Shown here: positions 1-57,528 of the stretch, piece by piece
How positions within the stretch are numbered: position 1 is the first letter of the stretch
Layout of the letters: the number at the start of each line of letters is the position of its first letter
Virus record (IMG/VR): IMGVR_UViG_3300007735_000800
Span: 1-64,000 of that record
DNA: 64,000 nucleotides
DNA from: a virus
Direction: 5' to 3' (one strand)
Program-made: the position numbers and the translations under genes
The notes under the pieces: model-generated
What the model saw: only the letters and a program-made list of their open reading frames with translations
Database searches by the model: none
Told to the model about the DNA's origin: nothing

Positions 1-42
1 GGGACATGCCCCTATGATAAGGGATAAGTTAGAATCTGTCAA
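1..42 (-). promoter_or_regulatory. Leaderless early-type promoter and start of a gene leaving the left edge
   Basis: On the minus strand TTGACA (42-37), a 17-base spacer, TATCAT (19-14) and six bases lead straight to an ATG at 7-5. Only ATGTCCC of the gene is inside the window, so its product cannot be judged. The predicted transcript start falls on the ATG, so the mRNA would be leaderless. Four more genes within the next 1.4 kb have exactly the same spacing. Confidence 0.75.
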
Positions 43-137
43 CCGATGCGCGAAGAAATATTTGAGATTATATTATCGGGCGCACCATCCAGGCCGGCGA
101 CTACTATCCGGCGAGCGAAGCGAGCCGGTGGACGGAC

Positions 138-164
138 TCAGGCCGGCGCTGCGCGCCGGCCTGA
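138..164. terminator. GC-rich hairpin, probable terminator
   Basis: A perfect 12-bp inverted repeat (138-149 with 153-164) has a 3-base loop and a GGCCGGCGC core. It lies downstream of the minus-strand gene at 247-492. No U-tract follows, so the termination role is inferred from position and from two similar hairpins at 1279 and 1647. Confidence 0.55.
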
Positions 165-187
165 TAGTAGCCCCCATAAACAGCCTA

Positions 188-206
188 GCCCCGAACGAAT
201 CGGGGC
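188..206. terminator. Second hairpin downstream of the 247-492 gene
   Basis: A 7-bp perfect stem (GCCCCGA at 188-194, TCGGGGC at 200-206) with a 5-base loop lies between the 247-492 gene and the larger 138-164 hairpin. It may be the proximal terminator of that gene. No T-run follows on either strand. Confidence 0.4.
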
Positions 207-246
207 AGGGAGCGAATCCTTTTCGGCTGTTACGAGCACCACCTCG

Positions 247-492
247 TTAGATCATGTCCCTCCGGGGCGCGATGAGAACGCCGTAGGCGATGTTGTGGAT
301 CATCTCGTACACCTCGCGCTTCGACTTGAACCCGCCGATGCCCACGACTCCGGCTTCGCAGTTGCGTTGCAGTTGCCATCCGCCGTAGGCTCCCTGGAGG
401 CAGAAGGAGCCCTTCTCGCCCGGCTTCACGCCGAGGTGGAGGTTGAGGCAGGCGAGGGCTTCGTTGACTTGCTTGATGGTGGTGCGCTTCAT
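247..492 (-). CDS. Small early-type protein of unknown function (81 aa)
   Basis: The product is 81 residues, GC-rich in codon use and read from an ATG placed six bases after a TACAAT -10 box, so translation is probably leaderless. It resembles, by general pattern only, short phage proteins with an N-terminal helix (KQVNEALACLN), a Gly/Trp-containing middle (YGGWQLQ) and a SKREVYEMIHNIAYGV helix. No catalytic motif is visible. It sits in a group of small, individually promoted genes typical of early host-takeover regions, which is inferred from layout. No function is assigned. Confidence 0.75.
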   Translation of the reverse strand: MKRTTIKQVNEALACLNLHLGVKPGEKGSFCLQGAYGGWQLQRNCEAGVVGIGGFKSKREVYEMIHNIAYGVLIAPRRDMI

Positions 493-527
493 GGTTGTAT
501 TGTACCGTAGGTGGTGCGTGTTGTCAA
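493..527 (-). promoter_or_regulatory. Leaderless sigma70-type promoter
   Basis: TTGACA (527-522), a 17-base spacer, TACAAT (504-499) and six bases precede the ATG at 492. There is no room for a ribosome-binding site in the transcript. Confidence 0.85.
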
Positions 528-542
528 GCGACCCGGAAAGAT

Positions 543-890
543 TTAGTGGTTGATTTCCGGGGGCGCGGAGGGGATGAACGCTTCGTGGATGCTGTCCACG
601 CGGAAGGATCGCAGCCCGCCCGCCGAGTGGTCGAAGTACAGGATGGATGCGGGGTAGGCGTTGTCCGTGGCGAGGTTCTCGATATCATCGTCCGTGCCAA
701 AGGCCTTGACGATGGAGGGGTTGCGCGTGGCCATGCGCGTGGCGATCACGCCATCGGTCTTCCGGTACTGGAGGCAGACCCAGCCCGCGTTGAGCGCGGT
801 GTACAGCATGGCCCGGTTGTCGGCGTAGCGCGGGTGCGAGGCGTTGAAGACGAGGGGGAGGACGATGGGGCGGGTGTCGATGGTGCTCAT
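543..890 (-). CDS. SH3/Sm-like fold (WYL_2-type) small phage protein
   Basis: This 115-residue protein has the pattern of the WYL_2 (formerly DUF2693) phage family, a predicted Sm-like SH3 barrel. A strand with KTDGVIATRMAT (around residues 44-55) is followed by ILYFDHSAGGLRSFRVDSI near residues 83-101, corresponding to the usual hydrophobic-D-x(4-5)-RSFR-x-D-I block. The role of the family is unknown. The start is the ATG six bases after TACAAT. A related C-terminal domain may occur in the AT-rich gene at 26632-27330. The assignment is from pattern memory, without a search. Confidence 0.72.
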   Translation of the reverse strand: MSTIDTRPIVLPLVFNASHPRYADNRAMLYTALNAGWVCLQYRKTDGVIATRMATRNPSIVKAFGTDDDIENLATDNAYPASILYFDHSAGGLRSFRVDSIHEAFIPSAPPEINH

Positions 891-925
891 GCACCCATTG
901 TAACCTATGGCCGGTGGTTTGTCAA
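891..925 (-). promoter_or_regulatory. Leaderless sigma70-type promoter
   Basis: TTGACA (925-920), a 17-base spacer, TACAAT (902-897) and six bases precede the ATG at 890. Confidence 0.85.
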
Positions 926-961
926 GCGACCTGCAGAAAGAAATATTTCTTTCCGAATGGG

Positions 962-996
962 TTGACAGGACAGCAGGTAGGCCGTATCATGGGGGC
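962..996 (+). promoter_or_regulatory. Leaderless sigma70-type promoter
   Basis: TTGACA (962-967), a 17-base spacer, TATCAT (985-990) and GGGGGC lead into ATG at 997. The 36-base gap to the divergent promoter at 891-925 contains no other signal. Confidence 0.85.
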
Positions 997-1254
997 ATGA
1001 GCACCCCTACCGACAACCACGAGCACGAACACTTCCCCTGCGACTGCCACCGCCCCGAGTACGCCTACACGGACAGCCTCTGCCCGATGTGCGAGGAGGA
1101 GCGCGAGCGGGAGCGCGAGAAGCGCATGGAGCAGGAGAGGCGCTGCGATGAGGCGGATCAGCAGGCGTTCGCGGATGCCTGCGGGAGCATGACGCAGGAT
1201 GACTGGGATGCAGACAACGACTGGCTAGCGAGCGCGGGATGGGGCGAGATGTAA
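997..1254 (+). CDS. Small Cys/His-containing acidic protein (85 aa)
   Basis: The start at 997 is chosen because the promoter places the transcript start there; an upstream in-frame ATG at 907 would lie before the promoter. The 85-residue product opens MSTPTDNH, has a possible metal-binding set (CDCH near residue 15, CPMC near 28), then a highly charged Glu/Arg helix and an acidic Trp-containing tail. Start context, length and Cys layout resemble the neighbouring 1369-1626 gene, suggesting distant paralogy. Function is unknown. Confidence 0.75.
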   Translation: MSTPTDNHEHEHFPCDCHRPEYAYTDSLCPMCEEEREREREKRMEQERRCDEADQQAFADACGSMTQDDWDADNDWLASAGWGEM

Positions 1255-1278
1255 GCCCACCGCCTACCACCCAGCCCC

Positions 1279-1303
1279 ATGCCGGCCCCGTAGGGGCCGG
1301 CAT
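1279..1303. terminator. GC-rich hairpin terminator
   Basis: A perfect 11-bp stem (1279-1289 with 1293-1303, core GCCGGCCCC) with a GTA loop lies 24 bases after the stop codon of the 997-1254 gene. It shares the GCCGGC core with the hairpins at 138 and 1647. Confidence 0.65.
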
Positions 1304-1333
1304 GGTCATTCGAAGAAATATAATGGGAAATGG

Positions 1334-1368
1334 TTGACAAACTTCCCACCTGCCCTTATCATAGGGGC
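1334..1368 (+). promoter_or_regulatory. Leaderless sigma70-type promoter
   Basis: TTGACA (1334-1339), a 17-base spacer, TATCAT (1357-1362) and AGGGGC lead into ATG at 1369. The sequence from -10 to the start codon nearly repeats that at 985-1005. Confidence 0.85.
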
Positions 1369-1626
1369 ATGAGCACCACCTGCAACAACGATGAAACCCC
1401 CCGCCCCGAGCCCGTGTGCCCCCGCTGCGGCTGCAGCGATGACGCGCCCAACAGCCACGACCTCTGCGAAACTTGCGTGGAGGAAATGGATGCCGGGTAC
1501 GAGGCCGATGACGAATGGGCCCCGGAGGACCCCGGCATCGATGGGGACCACCCCACCGGGTACGAGGCCGATGACGAACGCCCCTACGGGTGGGATGTGC
1601 CCGAGGAGGAATACCCGGACTGGTAA
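1369..1626 (+). CDS. Small zinc-ribbon-like acidic protein (85 aa)
   Basis: The 85-residue product has two CxxC pairs (CPRC near residue 18 followed by GC, and CETC near 35), suggesting a small zinc ribbon. The second half is very acidic and contains the repeated element GYEADDE twice. Start context, length and Cys layout resemble the 997-1254 gene. The small size, acidic charge and own early-type promoter fit a host-modifying early phage protein, but that is inference. Confidence 0.75.
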   Translation: MSTTCNNDETPRPEPVCPRCGCSDDAPNSHDLCETCVEEMDAGYEADDEWAPEDPGIDGDHPTGYEADDERPYGWDVPEEEYPDW

Positions 1627-5066: not shown

Positions 5067-5510
5067 TTAGAACCTATATGTTTGTGAATATTTTCCAAGA
5101 GTGCCGGATGTACCCATACTACCAAGATTTTTTTCACTTGCAGATAATATTCTTCTTCTAGAAGAATAATTATAATCATCAGCGGGATTCCATGTATCTG
5201 GAAGATCTATCTGTGGTATATTCTTTAATTCATCATTTCTTTTTTTGTCTTCTACATAATCACTAAAATCACGAGGTTTACCATAGTTAAAACCAAATGG
5301 AAAGCCAGGAGTGCCTGGTGGTACTTGTGTATTTCTTTTTTTATTTCTAGTTCTTGGATCTAATCTAGAGTCACCTGGGCGATATGGTCTTTTTCGTTTA
5401 GGAGGATCAGGAGGTCCTCCACCAAATCCACCTCCACCTTCCAATAAAGAATAAATTCTTTTTTCAAGGTCTTCGCATAGCTTTTTATAATAAAGAGCAG
5501 TATAATCCAT
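5067..5510 (-). CDS. Candidate internal head protein, MDY-type N-terminus (147 aa)
   Basis: The N-terminus MDYTALYYKKLCEDLEKRI is of the same type as the 1938 and 2495 proteins, and SLLE/G at residues 21-25 fits the L/I-x-E rule, followed by a Gly-rich linker. The C-terminal 45 residues match those of the 4567-5064 protein. The body is basic (KRKRPYRPGD, RNKKRN). A late promoter gives a leaderless start at 5510. It is probably the first gene of the 5510-to-3464 transcription unit. Confidence 0.74.
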   Translation of the reverse strand: MDYTALYYKKLCEDLEKRIYSLLEGGGGFGGGPPDPPKRKRPYRPGDSRLDPRTRNKKRNTQVPPGTPGFPFGFNYGKPRDFSDYVEDKKRNDELKNIPQIDLPDTWNPADDYNYSSRRRILSASEKNLGSMGTSGTLGKYSQTYRF

Positions 5511-5523
5511 AAAATTATTTATT
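5511..5523 (-). promoter_or_regulatory. T4-type late promoter, leaderless
   Basis: AATAAATA (5523-5516) and five bases precede the ATG at 5510. The box lies over the last codons of the upstream 5515-5958 gene. Confidence 0.75.
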
Positions 5524-12498: not shown

Positions 12499-12531
12499 TA
12501 CAAATATTTATCTTTTTTCATAAATATTTTT
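12499..12531. promoter_or_regulatory. Divergent leaderless late promoters
   Basis: On the minus strand GATAAATA (12512-12505) lies six bases from the gp48 ATG (12498). On the plus strand CATAAATA (12519-12526) lies five bases from the gp4 ATG (12532). The whole 33-base gap is just the two promoters. Confidence 0.85.
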
Positions 12532-12951
12532 ATGGCATACAAAACTACATTCAAACCAAAAAATGTAAAAAAGTATGTAGGTGATGTGTCAAAAATCAAA
12601 TGTCGTTCTTTATGGGAACGAAATATATGCAAGTTTTGCGATGAACACGATAACGTAATTAAATGGTCTTTTGAGGAAATAGTTGTACCATACATGAGCC
12701 CCATAGACCAAAAAATTCACAATTATTTTCCAGATTTTTTGATTCAATTTAACGATAAAAATCAAATAAAATCTTGGATGGTTGAGGTAAAACCCAAAAA
12801 ACAAACATATTTAAAAGAGGATGCTTCAAAAAAAGAAAAGATAACCTGGCTGATAAACAGCGCAAAATGGAAAGCAGCCGAGGCTTACTGCAAGAAGAAC
12901 AACATGGAATTCAAAATAATAACGGAAAAAGAGATATTCAATAATGGCTAA
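12532..12951 (+). CDS. 4: Head completion protein gp4 (TnsA-like nuclease fold)
   Basis: It matches T4 gp4 (150 residues) along its length: GDVSKIKCRSLWERNICKFC near residues 17-36, HNYFPDFLIQF near 62-72 and VEVKPKKQT near 83-91. These supply the E, D and ExK residues of a TnsA/restriction-like fold. gp4 is needed late in head maturation, before tail joining. The start is fixed by the leaderless late promoter. Confidence 0.87.
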   Translation: MAYKTTFKPKNVKKYVGDVSKIKCRSLWERNICKFCDEHDNVIKWSFEEIVVPYMSPIDQKIHNYFPDFLIQFNDKNQIKSWMVEVKPKKQTYLKEDASKKEKITWLINSAKWKAAEAYCKKNNMEFKIITEKEIFNNG

Positions 12952-20041: not shown

Positions 20042-20242
20042 TTATTCCTTGTGTAGTTGTGTTATTGCTATAAAATCCATTGGAACATCTTCTTTGTTTT
20101 TTGCTGCTCTTTTCTTTGCTCTTTTAAAGTCAGCTTCTGTCAATAGAAGAGGTGTTGCATTTCCTTTAGAATCTATATGGGCTACAAAATAATAGTAAGC
20201 ACTTTCTGTTGGCTTTCTATTTTTATTTTTTTGTCTTCCCAT
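20042..20242 (-). CDS. Small basic late protein (66 aa)
   Basis: The product is basic (KNKNRK near the start, KRAKKRAAKNK in the middle) and has a short beta region (AYYYFVAHIDSKGNATPLL). It has its own leaderless late promoter and ends 2 bases before the DUF5856-like gene, so it heads a late unit. No family is recognised. Confidence 0.68.
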   Translation of the reverse strand: MGRQKNKNRKPTESAYYYFVAHIDSKGNATPLLLTEADFKRAKKRAAKNKEDVPMDFIAITQLHKE

Positions 20243-20255
20243 AAAAATATTTATG
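20243..20255 (-). promoter_or_regulatory. T4-type late promoter, leaderless
   Basis: CATAAATA (20255-20248) and five T's precede the ATG at 20242. It overlaps the last codons of the upstream Cys-rich gene. Confidence 0.83.
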
Positions 20256-27817: not shown

Positions 27818-27837
27818 TATTTATCATAAATATTCAT
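27818..27837. promoter_or_regulatory. Overlapping divergent late promoters
   Basis: On the plus strand CATAAATA (27825-27832) lies five bases from the gp13 ATG (27838), giving a leaderless start. On the minus strand GATAAATA (27825-27818) gives a leadered transcript for the 27575-27799 gene. Confidence 0.8.
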
Positions 27838-28638
27838 ATGGTACCAGTAACACGCCAAGAATTCATAGATTATTGCTATAGATCTTTAGGAGCTCCAGTA
27901 GTTCAAATAAATGTAGATCCTTTGCAGGCAGAAGATAGATTGGATGAGGCTTTGGAGTATATGTATGAGCGTCATTTTGATTTCAATCAAAGGGCGCTAT
28001 ATCTTTATCAAATCACTCAAAACGATATTAACAACAAATATTTTGACACAACCCAATTCGGTCCAGCTTTGGGCGCGACAGGATCATGGCCTCTGGCCAC
28101 AGACATTAGAACAATAACAAAAGTGTATAGACCATCAGACGTTTCTGGTGACTACATGTTTGATCTAAGATATCAATTGACATTATTCGATTTCTTTGGT
28201 TTGTATTTTAACCAGGGTGGAATGCAGACTGGACCCATGGCAAGTTACATGGAATCGATGAGTTACTTGAAATTAATAAATGATGTTTTTAATTATCCAG
28301 TATCATATACATTTACAAAAACAACCAATAGATTGTTTTTGGATACGCAATATTCAGCTCTAGTTCCTGGAAGTTATCTTTTGGTTGAAGCTTATGTTCA
28401 AATTAACCCATCTGAATATCCAAAAGTTTGGGCAGATCGTGTATTTAAAAAATATTACACAGCATTATTGAAAAAACAATGGGCACAAAATTTAATGAAA
28501 TTTGCAGGAGTGCCTTTACCGGGTGGGGCACAGCTTAATGCCGGTGCCCTAATGGCTGAAGCAACCAATGAATTGGCTGCAATAGAAGAAAAACTGATAA
28601 AAACGCAAGAATTGCCTCCAGACCCATTAATAGGATAA
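27838..28638 (+). CDS. 13: Neck protein gp13
   Basis: This 266-residue protein matches T4 gp13 (309): LDEALEYMYERHFDFN near residue 40, SGDYMFDLRYQLTLFD near 101, and the C-terminal WAQNLMKFAGVPLPGGAQLN followed by an EATNEL helix. gp13 and gp14 form the neck ring closing the head and accepting the tail. It heads the large plus-strand late block. Confidence 0.9.
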   Translation: MVPVTRQEFIDYCYRSLGAPVVQINVDPLQAEDRLDEALEYMYERHFDFNQRALYLYQITQNDINNKYFDTTQFGPALGATGSWPLATDIRTITKVYRPSDVSGDYMFDLRYQLTLFDFFGLYFNQGGMQTGPMASYMESMSYLKLINDVFNYPVSYTFTKTTNRLFLDTQYSALVPGSYLLVEAYVQINPSEYPKVWADRVFKKYYTALLKKQWAQNLMKFAGVPLPGGAQLNAGALMAEATNELAAIEEKLIKTQELPPDPLIG

Positions 28639-43417: not shown

Positions 43418-43430
43418 GATAAATATTTTT
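43418..43430 (+). promoter_or_regulatory. T4-type late promoter, leaderless
   Basis: GATAAATA (43418-43425), five T's and ATG at 43431, only seven bases after the gp23 terminator's T-run. Confidence 0.85.
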
Positions 43431-44021
43431 ATGGCAGAAAACATTTGTCAAGATAACGTAAATCCACTTTACAATAATTACTTTCAATTTGTAATTAATC
43501 GTGGAACACGGCGTCTTGAGTTTATGGTGCAGAAAGTAAACTTACCAGGAATAACCGTTCCAGATCAAAGGCAACCTACAATTTTTGGTACAACTGTTCC
43601 CGTACCAACATTAGTTGCAGATTTTGATCCTCTAAACATAGAGTTCATGGTAGATGCAGATATGGTAAATTGGTTATCCTTATATTCTTGGATAAAGAAT
43701 ATTACAAATATTCAAGATGCAACCACGGATAATTTAAATGAATATCAAAAATGGCATTGGACAGCTTCTTTAATAATACCAAGTCCAATTGTAAATAACA
43801 GTACAAACGATAGAGCAATAACAAAAACAAATCCACTTGTTGTAAATTTTACAAATATTATTCCAATCAAATTGTCTGGACTTATATTCAGATCAGACGC
43901 TCAAGATGCTCAACAATTGCAATCTTCATGTACCTTTAAGTATTCTTACTATACAATAGATAATAAACACAACCCACCGTCAAATTTGACAAACACAACA
44001 AGAACCCAACCTTACATATAA
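43431..44021 (+). CDS. Tail-tube-fold protein (196 aa)
   Basis: The pattern NNYFQFVINRGTRRLEFMVQ, VNLPGITVPDQRQ and DFDPLNIEFMVDADMVNWLS followed by a YSWIKNI helix is that of the tube-like fold in gp19/gp54/gp48 proteins. Its own leaderless promoter separates it from gp23. Together with 12944, 36077 and 36629 it is one of four small tube-fold proteins. The exact role, such as tube initiator or extra ring, is not determined. Confidence 0.65.
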   Translation: MAENICQDNVNPLYNNYFQFVINRGTRRLEFMVQKVNLPGITVPDQRQPTIFGTTVPVPTLVADFDPLNIEFMVDADMVNWLSLYSWIKNITNIQDATTDNLNEYQKWHWTASLIIPSPIVNNSTNDRAITKTNPLVVNFTNIIPIKLSGLIFRSDAQDAQQLQSSCTFKYSYYTIDNKHNPPSNLTNTTRTQPYI

Positions 44022-56958: not shown

Positions 56959-57528
56959 GTGAAAAAACCAAAGAAAAAAAAATCTAAACCGTCTGATGCT
57001 GATTATGTAGACAATCAGGCGTTATATGATGCTTTGGTAGAATTTAAAAAGAAGATAAGAGAATCTGAAAACAGCGGAAAGAAAAAACCAAAACTTCCCG
57101 ATTTTATAGGCGAGTGCATACTAAAAATTGCATCTCGCCTTTCTTATCGACCAAATTTTGCCAACTATCCTTATAGAGAAGAAATGGTATCTGACGCAGT
57201 TTTAAATTGTATTACTTATATTGAAAATTTTGATCCAAAACTCTCAACCAGTCCATTTGGTTATCTAACGCAAATATGTTGGTTTTCATTCGTTAGGATT
57301 ATAAACAAAGAGAAAAAAGAAAAATATGTTCAATACAAGTTTGCAGAACAAAAAAATAATAAAGATTTTCAAAATTGGTTTAATGAAGTATATGCTGGTA
57401 TTGACATTGGAAGAAAAGATTTCTTTGGTTTGACCGATTCGGATATGGAACGGTTTGATAAAATGACTGAACCTAAGGTAAAGAAGAAAAGAAAAAGAAA
57501 AGTAAAAGAAGACATGTTTGAACTATGA
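56959..57528 (+). CDS. 55: Late sigma factor gp55
   Basis: It matches T4 gp55 (185 residues; here 189): YVDNQALYDALVEFKKKI, YPYREEMVSDAVLNC, then IENFDPKLSTSPFGYLTQI and RIINKEKKEKYVQYKFAEQ. gp55 is the minimal sigma that recognises TATAAATA. The Lys-rich ends may aid DNA or polymerase contact. The GTG start is set by the leaderless promoter; translation of gp47 starts 4 bases before its stop. Confidence 0.93.
   Translation: MKKPKKKKSKPSDADYVDNQALYDALVEFKKKIRESENSGKKKPKLPDFIGECILKIASRLSYRPNFANYPYREEMVSDAVLNCITYIENFDPKLSTSPFGYLTQICWFSFVRIINKEKKEKYVQYKFAEQKNNKDFQNWFNEVYAGIDIGRKDFFGLTDSDMERFDKMTEPKVKKKRKRKVKEDMFEL

Follow-up and report, generated by a model that had tools for sequence, protein, structure and literature searches.

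The phage genome described here very probably belongs to a clade of T4-like phages that makes leaderless mRNA in both its early and its late class of genes, the best explanation we have for promoters that would place the start of transcription on the A of the ATG. Our analysis window covers the first 64,000 bases of a virus record that is 126,277 bp long. The original prediction had pointed to starts at 7(−), 492(−), 890(−), 997(+) and 1369(+), and each of these does carry TTGACA, 17 nt, TATCAT or TACAAT, 6 nt and ATG (Table 1). All five share the geometry, but they are not five independent promoters since 7(−) repeats, in variant form, a site near the opposite end of the record. The number given was also too low: about nine more starts in the GC-rich region have the same geometry when one −35 mismatch is allowed, and late, gp55-type promoters, which obey the same placement rule, had been overlooked. 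The proposal that the genes are leaderless, with +1 on the A of the ATG, is the best supported reading, judging by features that lie outside the search criteria.

Table 1. Coordinates of predicted promoters, open reading frames and repeated elements (window positions unless a locus is named).
Position	Strand	Feature	Remarks
5-42	−	Predicted leaderless early promoter, variant copy of DUF7178 gene promoter (record 126117-126154)	Coding part leaves window
490-527	−	Predicted leaderless early promoter of 81-aa gene, TTGACA-17-TACAAT-6-ATG	Sequence geometry
247-492	−	81-aa ORF, start MKRTT	Clade relatives mostly keep −10 at 6 nt from ATG
888-925	−	Predicted leaderless early promoter of WYL_2-type gene, TTGACA-17-TACAAT-6-ATG	Sequence geometry
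543-890	−	115-aa ORF	Pfam WYL_2 (E 2e-7)
962-999	+	Predicted leaderless early promoter, TTGACA-17-TATCAT-6-ATG	Sequence geometry
997-1254	+	85-aa acidic ORF	ORF
1334-1371	+	Predicted leaderless early promoter, TTGACA-17-TATCAT-6-ATG	Sequence geometry
1369-1626	+	85-aa ORF, CxxC-type zinc-ribbon-like motif	Weak DZR_2 match
2439-2453	−	Late-type box ATAAATA, 5 nt before ATG	
5508-5522	−	Late-type box ATAAATA, 5 nt before ATG of 147-aa gene	
12520-12534	+	Late-type box ATAAATA, 5 nt before ATG of head closure gene (12532-12951)	
20240-20254	−	Late-type box ATAAATA, 5 nt before ATG of 66-aa gene	
27826-27840	+	Late-type box ATAAATA, 5 nt before ATG of head-tail adaptor gene (27838-28638)	
43419-43433	+	Late-type box ATAAATA, 5 nt before ATG of tail tube gene (43431-44021)	
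Window 101-170; L010 9807-9871, 12200-12273, 13992-14062, 17042-17096, 18816-18881		Copies of the CTACTATC...GATAGTAG element	

A GC-rich island divided by the ends of the record

GC content is ~58% in the first 1.7 kb and ~30-40% in most of the remainder, and it is high again, up to 63%, at the far end of the record, beyond ~109 kb. Record positions 126113-126277 are the same as window positions 1-165 at 153 of 165 positions, and all 12 differences fall in the first ~35 nt. Because the ends overlap, the GC-rich region is a single island divided by the ends of the record, and 7(−) marks no separate gene: its promoter is another version of the one that precedes the DUF7178 gene at 126119(−). 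The spacers of the two versions differ, and TTGACA, 17 nt, TATCAT, AGGGGC and ATG are kept in both. An overlap whose first ~35 nt differ suggests that sequence from two strains was assembled and that the genome is circular or terminally redundant. A blastn search of the island against annotated phages gave no match.

The record also contains a phage-encoded permuted tmRNA at 105555-105832 (equivalent to L011 19278-19555; Rfam RF04321, 75.7 bits), and small paralogous proteins with the motif RDEARR...GWDCFK are encoded in a row at L010 3901-5540. The tRNA genes of the island (L010 14415-15797) lie close behind the same type of promoter, for example TACAAT, ~8 nt, tRNA-Lys, which suggests that these RNAs, too, may have little or no 5′ leader. 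In addition, we observed a repeated intergenic element, CTACTATC...GATAGTAG, of ~53-102 nt with an internal hairpin, the stem of which varies in sequence between copies with its complementarity kept. T-rich sequence and GGAC/CCGATAA repeats often come after it; the element is found as well in most of the close-relative loci (L014-L028 and L036), and lies at a median gap of 58 nt from the predicted leaderless promoter where it precedes one. It may act as a terminator that has a competing second pairing.

Early promoters keep a fixed distance to the ATG

The original prediction had called for a count of the pattern against shuffled upstream regions. A broader form of it occurs 6 times in the window versus 1.0 in shuffles. 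A relaxed scan of the island (one −35 mismatch, spacer 16-18) identified 23 promoter-like sites, 14 of which have an ATG exactly 6 nt after the −10, compared with an average of 0.02 in Markov copies of the island (n = 200, never more than one site in a copy). Outside the island the −10-to-ATG distances are flat. We then combined the island with 16 relative loci, which were collected through one gene (query, the CobS-like ATPase of the island; 80-90% identity) and not as a random sample (genes were called throughout as simple ORFs); in this set 145 of 274 distinct promoter-like sites have the ATG at 6 nt. The next commonest distances in the range 0-15 are 7 nt (15 sites) and 0 nt (14 sites, most of them also with an ATG at 6). 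GTG is found at 6 nt in none of the 274, so the constraint falls on ATG. The extended −10 feature, a G located two bases upstream of the −10 box, occurs in 115 of the 145, as expected of strong promoters.

Matches to the exact pattern number nine in this record, 7-20 in each of the larger clade records, where they are mostly clustered in one stretch, and 18 in G001, another T4-like record (146 kb) in which gp55 is present. The reversed pattern is absent from this record and from all clade records. Thermus phage phiYS40, our positive control, has six exact matches and Streptomyces phage Sham three; P23-45, Kimona and lambda have none. In the window alone the numbers are small, with five sites and one of these not independent, and strong promoter matches followed by an ATG might there be put down to chance or to a by-product of the search. 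That explanation, which we give practically no chance, is refuted by the near-zero shuffled and reversed controls, by the sharp peak at 6 over distances 0-15 and by the absence of the early pattern from other T4-like phages (zero or one exact match each in T4, P-SSM2, AG-345-F15, S-SRM01, HTVC008M and syn9).

The original prediction took the repeated exactness of the sites as a sign of selection. The constant part is the 6 nt between −10 and ATG; the 17-bp spacer is not special: amongst the 145 sites the spacer is 17 nt in 104 and 16 nt in 40. The geometry might also have been fixed without selection if one promoter had been copied often and recently, and spacers within one genome do have short words in common, such as CACC/CCC. 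We consider this quite unlikely, given that spacers, the bases from −6 to −1 and the −10 variants (at least 12 kinds) differ widely, that spacer length varies between 16 and 17 and the 6 nt does not, that the two DUF7178 promoter versions retain the geometry despite 12 differing positions, and that late promoters, which are of another type, follow the same rule. Orthologues of CobT (~50-62% identity) likewise argue against copying: their −35 boxes have diverged (TTGACA, TTGACT, TTGCAA, CTGACT and CTACAC) and the −10 stays 6 nt from the ATG, with 7 in one case. In CobS orthologues the distance is 7 nt and the base before the ATG is C, so that the A is still the first purine after C.

Features that point to +1 on the A of the ATG

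RNA polymerase prefers a pyrimidine at −1 and a purine at +1, and the base at −1 is a pyrimidine in 144 of the 145 sites (C in 133, T in 11). By convention we took the seventh base after the −10 as +1, and a slip of 1-2 nt would give leaders of 1-2 nt. Comparison of orthologues shows N-termini conserved from the ATG of the leaderless geometry. The opening codons of these genes are rich in A and C (for example AAC, AGC and ACC), with an A+C fraction of 0.77 in codons 2-7 of the predicted leaderless starts versus 0.55 for the remaining ATG starts in that DNA, and gene-body values of 0.52 and 0.50, respectively. CA repeats after the start codon are known to enhance leaderless translation (PMC9031893), and a TANNNT box ~12 bp before the start codon is an accepted bacterial sign of a leaderless gene (PMC3160421). 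A −10 box that places +1 on the start codon is what we find at the 145 sites, with no comparable peak at any other distance.

If transcription started 1-5 nt upstream, on the G-rich stretch that precedes the ATG at four of the five window sites, the messages would have very short leaders in which the G-run (AGGGGC, GGGGGC) would serve as a close ribosome-binding site. We regard such leaders as improbable: most relatives have ACGCGC, ACACCC or ACCGAC instead, the G at −3 or −2 is variable and the C at −1 constant, and a distance of 1-3 nt from the ATG is too close for Shine-Dalgarno pairing, the usual spacing of which is ~5-9 nt. On the sequences of the relatives we rejected the G-run as a ribosome-binding site; with +1 on the A it would not be one because it lies upstream of the predicted start. 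With genes delimited by a crude caller, Shine-Dalgarno-like 4-mers precede about one third of them in both regions, and the signal is weak everywhere.

Another box, the same placement: the late promoters

Both the ATAAATA box and a gp55 homologue, as in T4-like late promoters, are found in this phage. The gene for the gp55-type late sigma factor is at 56959-57528 (+) (phrog_234, E 1e-49), and its product would be expected to read the box. In the whole record ATAAATA stands 5 nt before an ATG 10 times and 6 nt before an ATG five times; genes for head closure, head-tail adaptor and tail tube have it at 5 nt, and baseplate genes have it at 6 nt. Across eight clade records there are 62 instances of ATAAATA-5-ATG versus eight at 9 nt. 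T4 late boxes start at −13 (PMC2988020), and with this placement the 5-nt spacing would have +1 fall on the A here too. Such a box is missing in front of most late and middle genes, and many messages are probably leadered or operon-internal.

Pelagibacter phage HTVC008M (NC_020484) has nine instances of ATAAATA-5-ATG versus one at 9 nt. Its late messages, too, may lack leaders, and the late geometry may reach beyond the clade. There was no clear excess of ATAAATA-5-ATG in the other five reference phages.

Phage identity and host

The phage carries homologues of the sliding clamp, gp44, gp46/47, UvsY and RegA, and its gene content (gp23-type capsid, terminase, gp44/45/46/47, UvsY, RegA) is that of a T4-like myovirus. 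The CobS-like ATPase had no match when used to scan 84,980 genomes, and the exact promoter gave 20 scattered matches in the same genomes, most of them titled Clostridia and relatives, with no convincing host group. Hints from individual genes conflict. All but one of the matches to DUF7178 are in actinophages, which may be a weak hint of a host in the Actinobacteria; the actinobacterial marker WhiB, which is not universal in actinophages, is in none of 15 records. Two proteins with dockerin type I-like repeats are encoded at L011 15072-17536, one of them also with FG-GAP/EF-hand matches, and the virion genes are nearest to those of cyanophages. There is not enough evidence to assign the phage to Actinobacteria from DUF7178 or to Planctomycetes from the dockerin-like proteins.

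Discussion

We propose that small early genes are arrayed in the GC-rich region and that most have a strong host-type (sigma70) promoter of their own, placed such that transcription would start on the A of the ATG. The ribosome would bind the 5′-terminal AUG directly, aided by an A+C-rich coding start (Met-Asn/Ser/Thr-Thr-Thr...). In late promoters, which the phage gp55-type sigma factor would read, the box is another one (ATAAATA, 5 nt, ATG) and the placement of +1 would be the same. This rule would be common to an uncultured clade of T4-like phages; T4 and the tested cyanophages do not have the early form of it. We infer that the island promoters are of the early class from their sigma70 type and from the genes present; the exact 5′ ends, leaderless translation and early timing are likewise what we infer from the DNA. 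The rule would be found in two unrelated promoter classes, and translation is its most economical cause: the host may be one that reads leaderless mRNA well, like Actinobacteria and Deinococcus-Thermus, or the phage may shift initiation towards leaderless mRNA. A phage-driven shift of this kind has been proposed for phiYS40 (PMC3594737).

The nearest precedent is phiYS40, which has many leaderless mRNAs, as this clade would. In phiYS40 these are middle and late messages in a Thermus host, shown experimentally (PMC3594737), whereas here they would come from near-consensus sigma70 early and T4-type late promoters, known from sequence geometry. The first leaderless phage mRNA to be known, that of lambda cI from PRM with its 5′-terminal AUG (PMC3160421), concerns a single gene, in contrast to the array of at least a dozen genes here. 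TA-led leaderless genes of Actinobacteria and Deinococcus-Thermus share the TANNNT mark ~12 bp upstream (PMC3160421), but these are cellular and their mark is a −10-like box, whereas here the genes are viral and the −35 is near consensus as well. T4 late promoters (TATAAATA, gp55) have the same box as those described here, and a gp55 homologue is present; T4, however, has ATAAATA-5-ATG twice and the 9-nt control once, whereas here the box is enriched at gene starts. A literature search that covered few of the subscription journals gave no report of a T4-like lineage with systematic leaderless promoters, or of one with leaderless messages in its early and late classes alike. Leaderless phage mRNA as such is already known from lambda cI and phiYS40.

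Leaderless mRNA in phages has been seen as a curiosity, as in lambda cI, or as a trait of unusual hosts. This clade would offer a natural system, with dozens of promoters, for what leaderless initiation requires, and its promoter array can be used as a marker to find further members. Programs that score ribosome-binding sites when calling genes will misplace or overlook its small early genes. The finding also raises the questions of why a lytic phage would drop the Shine-Dalgarno signal and whether initiation factors are hijacked, as proposed for phiYS40. We think it likely that the clade has rewired both sigma70 early and gp55 late promoters to place +1 on the A, with the first codons of early genes tuned for leaderless initiation, and that such phages may need or induce a leaderless-favouring state of the ribosome in their host.
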